A stretch of DNA of 64,000 bases from Rhabdothermincola sediminis (GTDB taxonomy: Bacteria; Actinomycetota; Acidimicrobiia; Acidimicrobiales; Acidimicrobilacustridaceae). The stretch is from assembly GCF_014805525.1 (NCBI RefSeq), contig NZ_JACFSZ010000004.1:62001-126000 (forward strand). Reading direction: 5' to 3'. The position numbers were made by a program, and so were the translations under genes. The notes beneath the pieces were generated by a model that worked only from the letters and a program-made list of their open reading frames with translations, was not told where the DNA came from and did no database searches. Below, one piece after another: positions 50,993-55,971 of the stretch (position 1 is the first letter of the stretch; every line of letters begins with the position of its first letter).

Positions 50993-51065
50993 GCCCGGGT
51001 AGCTCAGTCGGCAGAGCGGCTCACTCGTAATGAGCAGGTCAAGGGTTCGATTCCCTTCCCGGGCT
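50993..51065 (+). tRNA. tRNA-Thr(CGT)
   Basis: Cloverleaf folds cleanly: acceptor 50993-50999 (GCCCGGG) with 51058-51064, D arm TAGCTCAGTCGGCAGAGC, anticodon stem GCTCA/TGAGC with loop CTCGTAA (anticodon CGT), and TpsiC arm AGGGTTCGATTCCCT. Discriminator T51065; CCA not encoded. 73 nt. From T51021 on, the 3' half and the next 16 bp are repeated downstream, marking it as an integration site. Confidence 0.95.
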
Positions 51066-51081
51066 CGTAAGGCTCTGACCA
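51021..51081 (+). repeat. attL-like copy of 61-bp tRNA-Thr 3'-end repeat
   Basis: Identical, apart from one base (G51061 versus A52144), to 52104-52164. It spans the anticodon loop, the 3' half of the tRNA and 16 bp beyond. Integrases that use tRNA 3' ends leave exactly this kind of flanking repeat. Confidence 0.8.
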
Positions 51082-51304
51082 GGGGAAACGGCCCTGGCAG
51101 TGCAGGAGCGATGTGAGCACAACGCTCCGACACCGGAGAAGGTCGACTACTACGCCCACATCGACGAGGGCGACAAGGGCTGCTGCCTCTGCGCCCAGTG
51201 CCCTTCGTCCTACCCCCCGAGTAGCAGGTACGCTCAACCGGGTCGAACGGCCGTTCTGGTGGGTTGTGTGGTGCCTCAGGCGGTCGTACATTGCGCATCA
51301 ATCC

Positions 51305-51347
51305 TCCCCACCTTTTGGGCTTCGCGCCTGGAATGGTGGGGATTTTT
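51305..51347 (+). terminator. Long hairpin plus T5 just before the NYN gene
   Basis: TCCCCACC (51305-51312) pairs with GGTGGGGA (51335-51342), and the interior TTTTGGGC can pair, using G-U pairs, with GCCTGGAA around TTCGC, making a ~16-bp stem followed by TTTTT (51343-51347). It is a canonical intrinsic terminator 17 bp before the NYN start codon, so it could attenuate that gene or end tRNA-strand transcription. Confidence 0.6.
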
Positions 51348-51364
51348 CATGCGGGAGTCAGGCA

Positions 51365-52018
51365 GTGCCGGACCGGCTCAGGGTGTTCATCGACTACCAG
51401 AACGCGTACATGCGGGCACGCGAGGTGTTCGGCAACGAGTCGACCAAGTACGACTTCACGTTCGGGCAGATCTACCCGCGTCGACTGGGGGTCCTGCTCC
51501 GGCAACGAGCTGAAGAGGCCGGGAAGCCCCGCACGCTCGATCAGGTACGCGTGTACCGCGGGGAGTCCGACGCGCAGCGCAACCCGACTGGGCAAGCGGC
51601 CTGTCAGCGCCAGCTCCGGTTCTGGTCAGCCCAACAGAGCGTCGAGGTGTTCACTCGCCCGCTCAACTACCGGCCGACGCGCTGGGAGAACGACAAGCCC
51701 GTGGAATGGGAGGTCCGCGAGAAGGGCATCGACGTGATGCTCGCGGTGGACATGGTCATGGGCGCGACCCGCGACGAGTACGACGTAGCCATCCTGATGT
51801 CAGCCGACACCGACCTGCTCCCGGCCGCTGAGGCCGTGATCGACACCGGGAAGTGGATCGAGTTCGCCGCGTGGCGGCCCGATGTGGGCTACGCCTCGCA
51901 CCTCCGGATCGCCGGCCGCCGGACCTGGTGCCATCACCTCCGGCGCAAGGACTTCGAGATGGTCGCTGACCCGACCGACTACACCAAGCCCGTGCCCGGA
52001 CCGCCGCCGACGACCTGA
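51365..52018 (+). CDS. NYN-domain (PIN-like) nuclease
   Basis: 217 residues. Metal-binding acidic positions of the NYN/LabA fold are visible: Asp10 and Asn13 in FIDYQNAYM, Asp123 and Asp129 in GIDVMLAVDM, and Asp148/Asp150 in LMSADTDLLPA. Such proteins cut RNA and occur in phage, islands and defence loci. GTG at 51365 with GGGAG upstream; the frame extends 84 codons earlier through the hairpin and is rejected there. It is the only clear gene between the two tRNA-end repeats. Other sequence in the island (51082-51300, 52019-52103) shows no supported gene or integrase. Confidence 0.8.
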   Translation: MPDRLRVFIDYQNAYMRAREVFGNESTKYDFTFGQIYPRRLGVLLRQRAEEAGKPRTLDQVRVYRGESDAQRNPTGQAACQRQLRFWSAQQSVEVFTRPLNYRPTRWENDKPVEWEVREKGIDVMLAVDMVMGATRDEYDVAILMSADTDLLPAAEAVIDTGKWIEFAAWRPDVGYASHLRIAGRRTWCHHLRRKDFEMVADPTDYTKPVPGPPPTT

Positions 52019-52103
52019 CGGTCGACGACAGCGGATAACACCCACGCACAACGCTCGCCGCCGACCTGCGCTTCCGCAGGTGAGCACAGCGTTCAGGCCC
52101 GTA

Positions 52104-52164
52104 TCACTCGTAATGAGCAGGTCAAGGGTTCGATTCCCTTCCCAGGCTCGTAAGGCTCTGACCA
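52104..52164 (+). repeat. attR-like copy of tRNA-Thr 3'-end repeat
   Basis: Second copy of the 61-bp repeat, 1083 bp from the first. It lacks the 5' half of the tRNA and one acceptor pair is broken (A52144), so it is not a working tRNA. With the first copy it bounds a 1.1-kb segment. Confidence 0.8.
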
Positions 52165-52193
52165 TGCCACGCAGAAACCGGGACCGGGTCTCA

Positions 52194-53426
52194 TCACCCA
52201 CCGGCCTCGCCGGCGTGACCGGGCTCGATGCGACGCGGCACGAGGTAGCGGCCCACCAGCGGCAGGCGCACGAAGCCTTGGACCGCTCCGAACAGCACCG
52301 CGACCTGTGGCAGCGAGCGCTGGTCCTCGTAGACGATCACCCGCGGCACCCAGTCGGGCCGGAAGCGTCGGTTGAAGTCACGCAGCGACTTGACCTGGAA
52401 GAAGGGGTTCAGCGCGGAGACGAGGACACGCGCCACGCGCTGGCGGAGGGTGAATCGCACGTCGGATCCGAACAGGCGCCCCGCGAAGGCGAAGTTCATC
52501 GACAGGACCCGCTCCCCGCGATCGCGAAATGCGAACGCGGTGTTGGCAACGAGGAACTCGGTCATCCCGTTCCGTGTATCCGGATCGCGCCGCATCAGGT
52601 CCAGGGTGCGCCCCACGATCGGCACCGTCCCGCCGGGTTCCGGTTCGCCGTACACCGGCACCGCCCGCAGGAACCCCCCGACGCTCGCGTCGGCGCGGTG
52701 GTGCGAGATCGCGAGAAGGTACTGCTGCTCCTTGCCCTCGACGTCCTGGCCGAGCGCCATCGTGAACCCACGCTCGGGCGCCTTGCCCCGCCACCGCTCG
52801 CTGACGGCGTTGCAGGCCGCGACGGTCGCCGCACCGACCTCCGACTCGGCGACGAGCTCGAAGTCGTAGGTGCGGGCGACCCGGCCGACCGATTGCCGCA
52901 CGCTCTTGTTGCGCTTGCCTCCGAGCGTGAACCTCGTGCAGTCGATGACGGCCTCGTCGCCGAGGTAGAGCGATCGCAGGCCCCGGCGCTCGTAGCGCGC
53001 GACCTGATCCTGCCGGACCGTCAGGAACGCGACGCCCCAACCGTGCCGGACGCACATGTCGAGGAACTCGTCGATGACCAGATCGATCGACGGCGCTGCA
53101 CCGACCGGGTCTCCCGAGGCCAGCGCGTAGCGCGCGAGGTATGCGTAGACGATCATCGCGTCACCGTCGGACGAGAAGAAGTAGCTCTTGTCATGGCGGA
53201 GCGCGAAGTAGGCCAGCGTGTCCGTGCCGTACCGGTGGACGAGTCGCTTCGCGGCGACCCAGTCGGCCTCGGTCCGCGGCGTCGCTACGATCGGCCGGAA
53301 GATCAGCACCAGGGTGGTCACCAGGCCGATCGAACCGAGCGCGACGAGCGACATCGGGAACGCGACCCCGAAGAACCCCGGCTGGTACGTGTACTCCCCC
53401 TCGACGCCGATCAGGCCTTCGAGCAC
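52194..53426 (-). CDS. MprF-like DUF2156 domain protein (lysyl-phosphatidylglycerol synthase half)
   Basis: About 410 residues. The C-terminal ~330 residues match the soluble aminoacyl-transfer (DUF2156) domain of MprF, which attaches an amino acid to phosphatidylglycerol (LALRHDKSYFFSSDGDAMIV, FTLGGKRNKSVRQSVGRV, GFTMALGQ, FLRAVPVY, MTEFLVANTAFAF). Only one membrane helix (FFGVAFPMSLVALGSIGLVT) precedes it, preceded by GEYTYQP, which looks like the end of the usual multi-helix flippase part; the rest is missing. GTG at 53426 is the best start, the frame running on to 53582 without membrane helices. Flanked by tRNA-end repeats, it may be a truncated import. Confidence 0.7.
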   Translation of the reverse strand: MLEGLIGVEGEYTYQPGFFGVAFPMSLVALGSIGLVTTLVLIFRPIVATPRTEADWVAAKRLVHRYGTDTLAYFALRHDKSYFFSSDGDAMIVYAYLARYALASGDPVGAAPSIDLVIDEFLDMCVRHGWGVAFLTVRQDQVARYERRGLRSLYLGDEAVIDCTRFTLGGKRNKSVRQSVGRVARTYDFELVAESEVGAATVAACNAVSERWRGKAPERGFTMALGQDVEGKEQQYLLAISHHRADASVGGFLRAVPVYGEPEPGGTVPIVGRTLDLMRRDPDTRNGMTEFLVANTAFAFRDRGERVLSMNFAFAGRLFGSDVRFTLRQRVARVLVSALNPFFQVKSLRDFNRRFRPDWVPRVIVYEDQRSLPQVAVLFGAVQGFVRLPLVGRYLVPRRIEPGHAGEAGG

Positions 53427-53647
53427 GCCGTCGCCGCGGTGACCGCCGTGACGCGTCGCGGCGACCGGACCGTCACCCGGGGGCAAAATGGTTCGGCAGC
53501 AGCGGTTCCCATCGTTCAGACCGGTCAGCCCAGCAGGTCCTCGGTGTTCTCCCTCGCGGCGAGCAGGGGCCGAGTCGGTCACGGGTCACGGACGGCGACG
53601 ATACCGGCGCGGCGGTCGCCAGCTGGTCCAGCCGACGACGGTCAGGA

Positions 53648-53679
53648 AGGTCGAGGGTTCGACTTCCCGTCCCGGGCTC
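53648..53679 (+). repeat. Degenerate tRNA-Thr 3'-end remnant
   Basis: The 32 bp read AGGTCGAGGGTTCGACTTCC then CGTCCCGGGCTC, clearly related to the T arm and acceptor 3' strand of the tRNA at 50993 but with several changes and no 5' half. A third copy of the tRNA end, it closes a second segment (52165-53647) beside the first island. Confidence 0.55.
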
Positions 53680-53696: not shown

Positions 53697-55766
53697 TCAG
53701 CCACGGTCGAGCGCCTCGATGATCTCGGAGGCTGCACCTCTCGACCAGCCGGGGGGTGTTCGCAGGAAGAGCCGGTCCAGCTCTGGCGTGGGCGAGGTGG
53801 TGAGAAGGCCCTCGACGGTGGCGTCATCGGCTCCGGCCGCCCGGAGCTCGGGCATGGCTCGCTGGATGCTACGGCGTACCCATTGGCAGTCGAGCGGGTG
53901 GGTGGCTCCGGCGGCGCATCGCTCCGTGGTCGCCGCGACCAGCGAAGGGGCCTCCTCGACCCGTCGGGCGAGCGCGGCGGTGAGGTCGATCTCCTGGCGA
54001 TACCCGGGATCGGAGGACGATCGCACGTAGGAGCGGCCTCGTGCCCGGTCACCGCAGAGCGGGTCGGTCGTGGGGTCGGGCGGGTCGCCAGCGAGGCGGG
54101 CCAACCGGTACCGCGTGCCGAACGGCGCAGAGGTGACCCAGTCGTCGTGGATGTAGCAGGACCAGATCCCGTGCACCTCCACCACATCGGGCACCTGGAC
54201 CTGCAGGAGGTAGTCGTCGAGGAGATCCGGGCGCGTGCGGCGGATCTCCGCGGCCACCGGGTCCCCGAGGAAGCCGAGGTCGACGAGGACAGCCGCCTTC
54301 TCGAACGAGAGCTTGCCGATGTCAGGTGCGGCGACGATCGTCCTCGGGAGCCCGGTGTCGTGCGCATGCTCGGCAGCGAGATCGAGCACCGCCCGGTGGT
54401 CCTCCACCGCACAGCACAGCTCGGCGTCCCCGGACCGCCAGGCCATCACCCCGACCGCCACCAGTCCGCCGCAGGCCAGCACCGTCGCCGCCCCGGCTGC
54501 TCGCCGAGCTCCCGCTTCCCACTCGGTGCGGAGTCTCGACGCGTTCGGAGGTGTGAGGAGCCACAGGGCCACGACCCCCGCACCCGAGGCCAGCAGGATC
54601 AGGCTCTGCCCTCCGATCCGGGGAGGATCGAGGCGGGCGGGACCGAGCACGAGCTCTTGGGCCATGGGCGCCATTCCCACCAGGAGGATCACGGCCCAGC
54701 TGAGCAGGCCCCCTGCCCGCAGGGCCCATCCGGCCGCCGCGAGCATCAGCAGACCGGCCAAGGCGATGACGAGCCGTGTGGGCACGTCGTCGAGGATCAG
54801 GCCGTCGGGGTCCGATGCGGCGACCAGGGCGATCGTGAGGAAGGCCATGCCCGCGAGCGAGGTCGCCACCAGCAAGCCGGCTTCTCGGCGCCATCGCCAG
54901 CCGACGCCCGCGAGCAGCGCGGCCACGGCACCGAGCGCCAGGAGACCGGTCAGCGACACCGAGGTCTTGCCCTGCACGATCGCCGAGTTCGGCAGGAGCG
55001 TGCCGAACGTGGCCGACCTCCAACCGTGGACGAGCGCCCAGATCGCGATCGCGATCCCGGCGACCCGGGCCGCCACGGCGGGCCGGTCGCGCCACAGCAG
55101 GTACGTGGTTGCAGCCAGCGCAGGCAGCAGGAACACGGCGAGCTCGGTGCGGGTGATGCCCGTGAGACCGAAGAGGATCCCTGCCGCGTAGCCGCGATGG
55201 GAGCGCTCACGGAGCACCCCGAGCGTGGTGGCCATCACGCCGAGCAGCAACGGCACCGTGATGCTGTTCTCCATCCCCGATCCGAACCACCCGAGCGCCA
55301 CCCAGGTGCTCAGCCCCACGACTGCAACCGCGGTTCCGGCGACGAGGCGCGCCCGGGTCGGAGCGCCGGGCACGGCATGGTGCAGGAGGCGGGACACGAA
55401 GTAGCCGCAGAGGGCGAATCCGGCGAGCACCTGCACGTCGAGGAAGGTGTCCCAGCCCGAGCCACCCAGCCGGTAGTACAGCGCGGCGACGAAGAACTGC
55501 AGGGGCGCGGAGTAACCCTCGACCCGCTCGCCCGCCGCCGAGACCGACGGGACCCCGAGCTCCACCCAGCCCCGGGCATGCGACAGGGTGATGACCGCGT
55601 CGTCCCGCCACCGCCAGAGGGTCGGGTCGCGCAGGCCGAGCAGGAGGATGCCCACCGCGACCCACCCCAGCGCGCCCACCACGTCGATCGAGCGAGCATG
55701 GAGCAGGCCAGCACTCTGCCGCAGCCGACGAGCAGGATGAGGGTGGCGTCCCTGAGGAGGCTCCAT
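53697..55766 (-). CDS. Multi-pass membrane protein, glycosyltransferase (GT-C)-like
   Basis: 689 residues with about ten to twelve membrane helices between residues ~25 and ~450, then a ~230-residue extracytoplasmic C-terminal domain. The first loop after helix 1 has DDAVITLSHARGWVELGVPS, matching the DD/DE acidic motif of GT-C enzymes such as those that use polyprenyl-linked sugars. The later GWFGSGMENSITVPLLLG and GRTELAVF-type region (GLTGITRTELAVF) also fit. ATG at 55766 chosen as it follows AGGAGG; the longer frame starts in sigR's promoter region. Likely acts in envelope glycan or arabinan-type modification. Confidence 0.75.
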   Translation of the reverse strand: MEPPQGRHPHPARRLRQSAGLLHARSIDVVGALGWVAVGILLLGLRDPTLWRWRDDAVITLSHARGWVELGVPSVSAAGERVEGYSAPLQFFVAALYYRLGGSGWDTFLDVQVLAGFALCGYFVSRLLHHAVPGAPTRARLVAGTAVAVVGLSTWVALGWFGSGMENSITVPLLLGVMATTLGVLRERSHRGYAAGILFGLTGITRTELAVFLLPALAATTYLLWRDRPAVAARVAGIAIAIWALVHGWRSATFGTLLPNSAIVQGKTSVSLTGLLALGAVAALLAGVGWRWRREAGLLVATSLAGMAFLTIALVAASDPDGLILDDVPTRLVIALAGLLMLAAAGWALRAGGLLSWAVILLVGMAPMAQELVLGPARLDPPRIGGQSLILLASGAGVVALWLLTPPNASRLRTEWEAGARRAAGAATVLACGGLVAVGVMAWRSGDAELCCAVEDHRAVLDLAAEHAHDTGLPRTIVAAPDIGKLSFEKAAVLVDLGFLGDPVAAEIRRTRPDLLDDYLLQVQVPDVVEVHGIWSCYIHDDWVTSAPFGTRYRLARLAGDPPDPTTDPLCGDRARGRSYVRSSSDPGYRQEIDLTAALARRVEEAPSLVAATTERCAAGATHPLDCQWVRRSIQRAMPELRAAGADDATVEGLLTTSPTPELDRLFLRTPPGWSRGAASEIIEALDRG

Positions 55767-55913
55767 GTCGGGTCGAACGTATCGTGCCGCCCGCGGCCCG
55801 TGAGGGTGAGGGGGTCGGGATGGGGTGGCTCCCGATCGAGCCTCGAGTTCCTGCTCAAGGATGCGTCGGGATCTGCCGATACCCGGGATGTCCCAACCCG
55901 ATAGTGCACACAC

Positions 55914-55942
55914 CGGAACCCCGGCCCCGTGCCGGGGTTCCG
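55914..55942. promoter_or_regulatory. Perfect inverted repeat in the sigR upstream region with SigR-like promoter spacing
   Basis: A 12-bp stem (55914-55925 with 55931-55942) around CCCGT. It also contains GGAAC (55915-55919) and GTT (55937-55939) 17 bp apart, close to the SigR promoter (GGAAT-N18-GTT), hinting at autoregulation. A TAGGGT box (55959-55964) seven bases before the ATG may give a second, leaderless transcript. Confidence 0.5.
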
Positions 55943-55971
55943 TCATCCCGACGGCGGGTAGGGTGGCATCG

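Follow-up and report, generated by a model that had tools for sequence, protein, structure and literature searches.

Within the 64,000-nucleotide stretch of Rhabdothermincola sediminis DNA analysed here (the window), the segment 51067–52103 is quite likely an integrase-less, att-flanked cassette, placed at the anticodon region of tRNA-Thr(CGT) and moved by an integrase that we infer to act in trans. Site-specific insertion is the strongest reading since integrase-bearing and integrase-less units share their ends, empty sites exist and units are stacked at one tRNA, and an enzyme in trans is invoked because none was found in the cassette or in the searched genome. As far as the sequence can tell, the best reading of this first unit is that of a non-autonomous, CIME-like cassette, presumably mobile.

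The target gene, an intact tRNA-Thr(CGT), lies on the forward strand (nt 50993–51066; ARAGORN; Rfam tRNA, 70.8 bits). Its 3' part, from about nt 51021 on the same strand, is the first copy of the core and, together with the first 15 bp of the left end, makes up a 61-nt direct repeat (nt 51021–51081, forward strand). The second copy of the repeat (nt 52104–52164, forward strand) comprises the right-hand core, its final 15 bp repeating the start of the left end. The two copies are identical at 60/61 positions and spaced by 1,083 bp; an earlier note on this DNA had reported the intact tRNA and the 61-bp repeat at that distance, with one mismatch, and this is confirmed. The third, degenerate tRNA-end copy that it had also proposed (nt 53648–53679, forward strand) proved to be real: its alignment spans 32 columns and has two mismatches and a one-base insertion, and its local score (23.5, with 13.5 as the best elsewhere in the window) was reached by 0/300 dinucleotide-preserving shuffles of the whole window, the shuffle maximum being 16.0.

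The segment 51067–52103 holds, in order and with a core on either side, a left arm, a gene for a NYN-domain nuclease and a right end, all on the forward strand. The left arm, AGCACAACGCTC-cg-ACACCGGAGAAG (nt 51116–51141), is found at +50 from the tRNA end and shows 4 mismatches to the pair AGCACAGCGCTC/ACAGCGGATAAC, while the right end (nt 52021–52103, ≈83 bp) consists of a ACAGCGGATAAC block followed by the arm-like blocks GCACAACGCTC and AGCACAGCGTTCAG. In a unit of 1 kb there is space for the NYN gene alone as cargo (nt 51365–52018, 217 aa). Its product matches PF01936 (E = 1.2e-11; 45.7 bits, gathering score 24.2) and keeps all the conserved acidic positions, among them those that we take to be catalytic, in line with the NYN nuclease previously assigned to the first interval. 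A partial match was also obtained to HEC-09, a candidate defence family of PADLOC (E = 1.7e-10, 55 residues, positions 90–144 of 203). The window and G004 proteins share 78% of residues, with dN 0.130 and dS 0.778 (dN/dS about 0.17), and, judged on its sequence, the gene is intact and constrained. A recent horizontal transfer of the NYN cassette was considered, given the 78% protein identity vs 50–58% for two flanking genes, but silent sites are similarly diverged: between the window and G004, dS and fourfold identity are 0.78 and 0.48 for NYN, 0.86 and 0.47 for MFS, and 1.01 and 0.43 for holB. Since the NYN silent sites are about as diverged as those of MFS and holB, a recent transfer of the cassette is unsupported. 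No integrase was detected in the tRNA-Thr interval of the window, and a search of its genome (3,293,621 bases, 49 contigs) with the integrase known at tRNA-Thr elsewhere gave just 29–31% identity for the best three matches, in agreement with the earlier remark that no integrase remains.

The right end recurs in relatives. Downstream of the G004 tRNA come three further 3' copies, spaced by 925, 954 and 752 bp, and the ≈83 bp before each of them resemble the ≈83 bp before the second core of the window; in other families, the layout is a ACAGCGGATAAC-like block, GCACAGCGCTC, a gap of 26 or about 37 bp, AGCACAGCGCTCAG, about 7–10 bp and the core. A held-out model, built from 12 right ends, none of the window's family, and run on 249 kb, recognised the right end of the window (E = 5.3e-17), those of the three G004 copies (3.6e-16, 5.2e-16 and 6.9e-16), and those of G001 (2.4e-11) and G054 (6.8e-5). 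With a second model of 18 sequences, the window's included, a match at E ≤ 0.001 was obtained in 37/397 genomes of the order; a right end at the 3' part of tRNA-Thr(CGT) was present in 19/397, 13 of which had contributed training sequences, plus G001 (cores read by eye). The genome scans for right ends undercount, since two candidates per genome were scored in one and stricter filters were applied in the other. G060 was left out of the right-end model because its right end is diverged (17 bits). A pattern scan of genome contigs yielded 57 stretches, of which 11 lay on contigs judged by their length to be already covered, and the matches outside Acidimicrobiia among the 46 rescored were mostly weak or due to chance. 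As for viral carriers, the single pattern match was a tandem repeat, scoring 15 bits by the model. The NYN cargo was rejected as a cassette marker, no tRNA-end repeats being found in 20 regions around homologues of other genomes. Long direct repeats of other kinds occur in two of these regions (L078 and L087), and a third (L081) shows a right-end-like match near the NYN gene, with no core found.

The left-arm pair, AGCACAGCGCTC plus ACAGCGGATAAC, lies 50–52 bp past the tRNA in eight first units, with mismatches, over 24 positions, numbering 4 in the window, 2 in G004, 7 in G054, 2 in G052, 6 in G600, 7 in G502, 4 in G586 and 5 in G639; among 3000 random 160-mers of the window, 0.27% reach 4–6 mismatches and 0.67% reach 7. 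The integrase-bearing G052 and G600 have the arm at +52. It is found 29 bp after the tRNA in G045 and G369 (5 mismatches each) and, with 7 mismatches, at +73 in G611. None of four sites without a partial tRNA copy (0/4) carries it.

Empty tRNA-Thr sites exist in relatives: of 14 genomes picked for showing no partial copy adjoining the tRNA, 13 gave no right-end match at E ≤ 0.01, and the fourteenth gave a weak one (0.0075). The tRNA stands between holB and a sigma-factor gene at the five loci showing both neighbours (L026, L027, L028, L037 and L038), and in G473 and G573 the sigma-factor gene is on the opposite side of the tRNA. The gap from the tRNA to the first aligned base of the sigma-factor gene measures 29 bp in G049, 0.9 kb in G014, 1.8 kb in G006, 3–8 kb in G009, G010, G012 and G015, and about 4.8 kb in the window. 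Stacks comprise three units in G004, two each in G502 and G586, and two or three in G639. Larger elements, of 7.8 kb in G052 and 10.6 kb in G600, have the right end and left arm as in the window; each has a gene for a tyrosine recombinase of some 300 aa, the two proteins being 52% identical. The integrase gene starts about 85–105 bp after tRNA-Thr in G052, G600 and G045, adjoining the tRNA close to a contig end in the latter. Phage_integrase and SAM-like domains were recognised by Pfam in the G052 and G600 integrases, with no N-terminal arm-binding domain, and the G600 protein scores as XerC/XerD-like, under the NCBIfam cut-offs. Integrase matches of at least 47% were obtained in 5/16 genomes searched (G600, G052, G369, G045 and G573), relatives of the integrase lying beside tRNA-Asn in G369 and tRNA-Ala in G573, with an arm-like motif in between (by eye); in the other 11, including the window's, G001, G004 and G054, the best match was 28–33%, and drafts may miss genes. 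We saw no genome in which a cognate integrase directly adjoins an integrase-less cassette, and no integrase was found beside the stacked loci.

The two checks suggested by the earlier note, a comparison of the site in relatives and a search for integrases at tRNA-Thr(CGT), thus returned empty, small, stacked and large occupied forms, and a XerC-like tyrosine recombinase in G052, G600 and G045. Its proposal of successive insertions at one site followed by decay is supported as regards insertion, given the varying forms of the site among relatives, with a succession of insertions in the window itself no more than possible, and is not supported as regards decay of the first unit, which keeps its left arm, right end and both cores, has an intact and constrained NYN gene, and belongs to a small integrase-less form recurring elsewhere without integrase remnants. 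Six further loci (L144, L150, L151, L152, L158 and L024) have stacked elements or partial or repeated tRNA-Thr(CGT) cores with other end sequences; the first five, having different ends, were not counted in the cassette family. From these different ends, several kinds of element seem to use the site.

Integrase-less units are mostly 0.7–2.5 kb long, and cargo was inspected in 16 of them, spanning 705–2,484 bp, a set that leaves out the MprF interval of the window (1,498 bp) and G473 (4,514 bp). Genes of toxin-antitoxin type are present in 7/16 (G004_1, G004_3, G568, G502_1, G573, G639_1 and G611), including a nucleotidyltransferase/HepT pair in G004_1, a ribbon-helix-helix gene with a frameshifted Fic/Doc in G004_3, a ribbon-helix-helix-type gene in G568, of another family and similar by eye to that of G004, and a PIN domain in G611. 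NYN genes occur in two units, the window and G004_2, with a NYN fragment at a contig end in G001; DUF4259 was found in G517, a GNAT next to the pair in G502_1 and only a sub-threshold SMI1/KNR4 match in G586; for several other units, G054 among them, no cargo family was recognised. Five genomes share, within their units or just past them, a gene pair that includes a RelE/ParE-like protein. A protein of about 104 aa, on which the count of G502_1, G573 and G639_1 rests, lies within units of G502, G573 and G639 and just past the unit in G611 and G665. Its predicted fold is beta-alpha-alpha-beta-beta-beta (pLDDT 87.7, five sequences), and a structural comparison ranked highest chains from toxin-antitoxin complexes (PfiAT, HigB2 and ParDE), the best at E = 0.008 and none below 0.001.

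These data bear on the first alternative, ordinary decay, by which a full element inserted with its integrase at tRNA-Thr would have lost its inner part by deletion, leaving NYN between the two ends as in a classical CIME. We consider it possible but distinctly less probable than insertion of a ready-made cassette. The unit does have the structure by which CIMEs are defined (PMC5704250), integrase-bearing elements with equal ends exist, and the neighbouring, apparently truncated MprF (see below) and the frameshifted Fic/Doc of G004 indicate that some decay occurs. Against it, no integrase remnant was found in 18 intervals (best E = 0.92), and the two ends of the window unit are intact. Moreover, small sizes recur with differing cargo, the ribbon-helix-helix-type gene is carried by cassettes of two families (G004 and G568), and the RelE/ParE-like pair is likewise recurrent.

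A second and improbable alternative is an integron-like arrangement, with the tRNA and left arm as a fixed platform onto which a dedicated recombinase would add, at the far core, units consisting of cargo plus one recombination site (right end and core). Integron gene cassettes are small cargo-plus-site units that form arrays and may bring toxin-antitoxin cargo, and the arrays of small units seen here are alike; here, unlike in integrons, no integron integrase was recognised and the core is part of a tRNA. The stacks hold different cargo, and most first units have a left arm, while none was found in the internal units G004_2, G004_3, G502_2, G639_2 and G639_3. On the contrary, no left arm was detected in the first units G568 and G517, nor a convincing one in G473 and G665 (10 mismatches each), and left-arm-like matches (6–7 mismatches) follow later cores in G052 (first block exact), G586 (G586_2, 6 mismatches), G611 and G665 (G665_2, 7); those after internal cores in G586 and G665 lower our confidence in this arrangement. 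In addition, the stacked loci have no adjoining integrase, and the G600 integrase scores 55 bits with the integron-integrase model, whose cut-off is 265. Finally, a local segmental duplication of the tRNA 3' end without insertion, which the earlier note had named as the refuting case and which would account for direct repeats beside an intact tRNA, is virtually excluded, since insert content, size and number vary among relatives, sites may be empty and shared ends precede the second core.

The second interval of the window (1,498 bp) is bounded by the degenerate third core and, after copy 2, shows the 15 bp of left-end identity. It contains, on the reverse strand (nt 52194–53582), a MprF/LysX-like protein with C-terminal domain PF09924 (E = 1.6e-66), complete at positions 2–298 of 298. 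The open frame has 463 aa, compared with 510–1124 aa, mostly 579–610, for the MprF matches of other family genomes (n = 20), and from this difference in length the window protein probably misses its N-terminus. The partial MprF of the earlier note is accordingly a shorter frame than those of the 20 matches, with a complete C-terminal domain. MprF was matched in 20/37 family genomes, 19 besides the window's own, and in each of these 19 it lies on a contig other than that of the best tRNA-Thr match; neither MprF nor the next membrane protein (nt 53697–55946) had a match among the 39 tRNA-Thr loci compared. Searched as a candidate second cassette, the interval yielded neither a right end nor a left arm, and its reading as an insert is weakly supported.

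A hairpin is predicted upstream of the NYN gene (nt 51302–51349, forward strand), with compensatory changes in NYN homologues (L071–L086). Its outer stem, CCCCGCC/GGCGGGG, stands about 10–50 nt ahead of the NYN match in most homologues; the motif was found by pattern in 17/19 of them, L073 being added by the model, and in L087 it follows the gene. Seven of 14 pairs are changed on both sides in 17 aligned sequences, and no Rfam family matches at E ≤ 1. Hairpin matches were obtained in 18/20 genomes, mostly picked for their NYN homologues, and in 19/296 genomes of a phylum sample. Among the best ten of the latter, which omit G000 and G128 as already among the NYN genomes, seven have NYN at most about 200 bp away, the hairpin being a leader in four of them and oppositely oriented in three; of the remaining three, two showed no NYN in the stretch and in one the stretch is obscured by Ns. 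Strong or moderate matches without NYN in the stretch were seen at L307, L309, L324, L327, L329, L330, L331 and L310, and the stretch of L321 is partly masked. At L296 and L300 (G360 and G362), two tandem hairpins of this type, 111 nt apart, precede one NYN gene. The hairpin may possibly be an insulating terminator, or else form the RNA target of the NYN protein in an autoregulatory loop. The open-access literature of one library returned no obvious description of the hairpin or of such cassettes, which does not prove that none exists.

Similar right ends were also read by eye at other tRNA genes: before 3' parts of tRNA-Arg(ACG) in G640 and G563 (degraded in G444) and of tRNA-Val(TAC) in G644, and before reversed 5' halves of tRNA-Arg(TCT) in G437 and of tRNA-Arg(ACG) in G515 and G620. 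In G008 (L205) the right end stands at a reversed 5' half of tRNA-Pro(TGG), in two copies 1,176 bp apart. Loci with right ends at other tRNA halves, in both orientations, are L205, L207–L212 and L222, and ARAGORN called no gene at the partial tRNA-Arg, -Val and -Pro copies. Cassette-like right ends were further noticed at L206 (three ends) and L213, before a shared core matching no recognised tRNA. In four other Actinomycetota contigs (L231, L264, L269 and L282), a similar end precedes a shared GCGCGACTACCTCGACTGA-like sequence, perhaps the final part of a protein-coding gene.

Under the cassette reading, a XerC-like recombinase from a resident or incoming autonomous element would act in trans and recombine the core of the cassette with that of the tRNA close to the anticodon loop. 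As the cassette carries a tRNA 3' part, the tRNA would be rebuilt, with the old 3' part pushed to the far end as the repeat. Repeated insertion, at the tRNA or at the far core of a resident unit, would give stacks. The cargo, NYN in the window and elsewhere several toxin-antitoxin-type genes, might keep the unit stable or protect its host. The search of the window's genome gave no cognate integrase, so the cassette may now be stranded there. Weighing against this reading, Pfam recognises no N-terminal arm-binding domain in the integrases, no genome was seen in which a cognate integrase adjoins an integrase-less cassette, and four first units (G568, G517, G473 and G665) and five internal ones show no convincing left arm.

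Phage satellites such as PICMIs are reduced, helper-dependent elements, and the window unit resembles them in its proposed helper dependence, with no integrase or phage-type gene recognised in it. An IME would encode its own excision and integration, and no integrase was found in the window interval; likewise, no integron integrase was found in the unit. CIMEs (PMC5704250) have att sites on both sides and no integration or transfer genes, and may accrete in tandem at one gene end. The window unit has attL/attR-like flanks (predicted sites) and no integration or transfer genes, so that structurally it would fall in this class, and the cassettes agree with CIMEs in flanking att, missing mobility genes and stacking. 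They differ in being about 1 kb long, with one gene or operon and no larger-element remnant found, in having related larger elements with a XerC-like recombinase, and in their apparently several tRNA targets. Tandem islands bounded by RNA-gene 3'-end repeats are described at ssrA of Dehalococcoides (PMC3146451), where 15 islands without integration module are said by the authors to be possible CIMEs; these differ in their serine recombinase, ssrA target, reductive dehalogenase cargo and integration modules of 9–11 kb.

More tentatively, and at rather lower probability, Acidimicrobiia might possess a tRNA-anchored cassette system, in which minimal units (each a single gene or toxin-antitoxin operon with its conserved end and part of a tRNA) would be loaded into several tRNA genes by integrases of a XerC-like family in trans, performing an integron-like function on anticodon loops, with relatives of the ends in other Actinomycetota. 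Single-gene units without integrase are easily overlooked as they have no hallmark gene, and the held-out right-end model offers a means to find more such cassettes. The matched ends of integrase-bearing and integrase-less units allow a direct test. If the trans step is real, tRNA genes could gather small toxin-antitoxin and nuclease genes that bring along neither a transposase nor an integrase.
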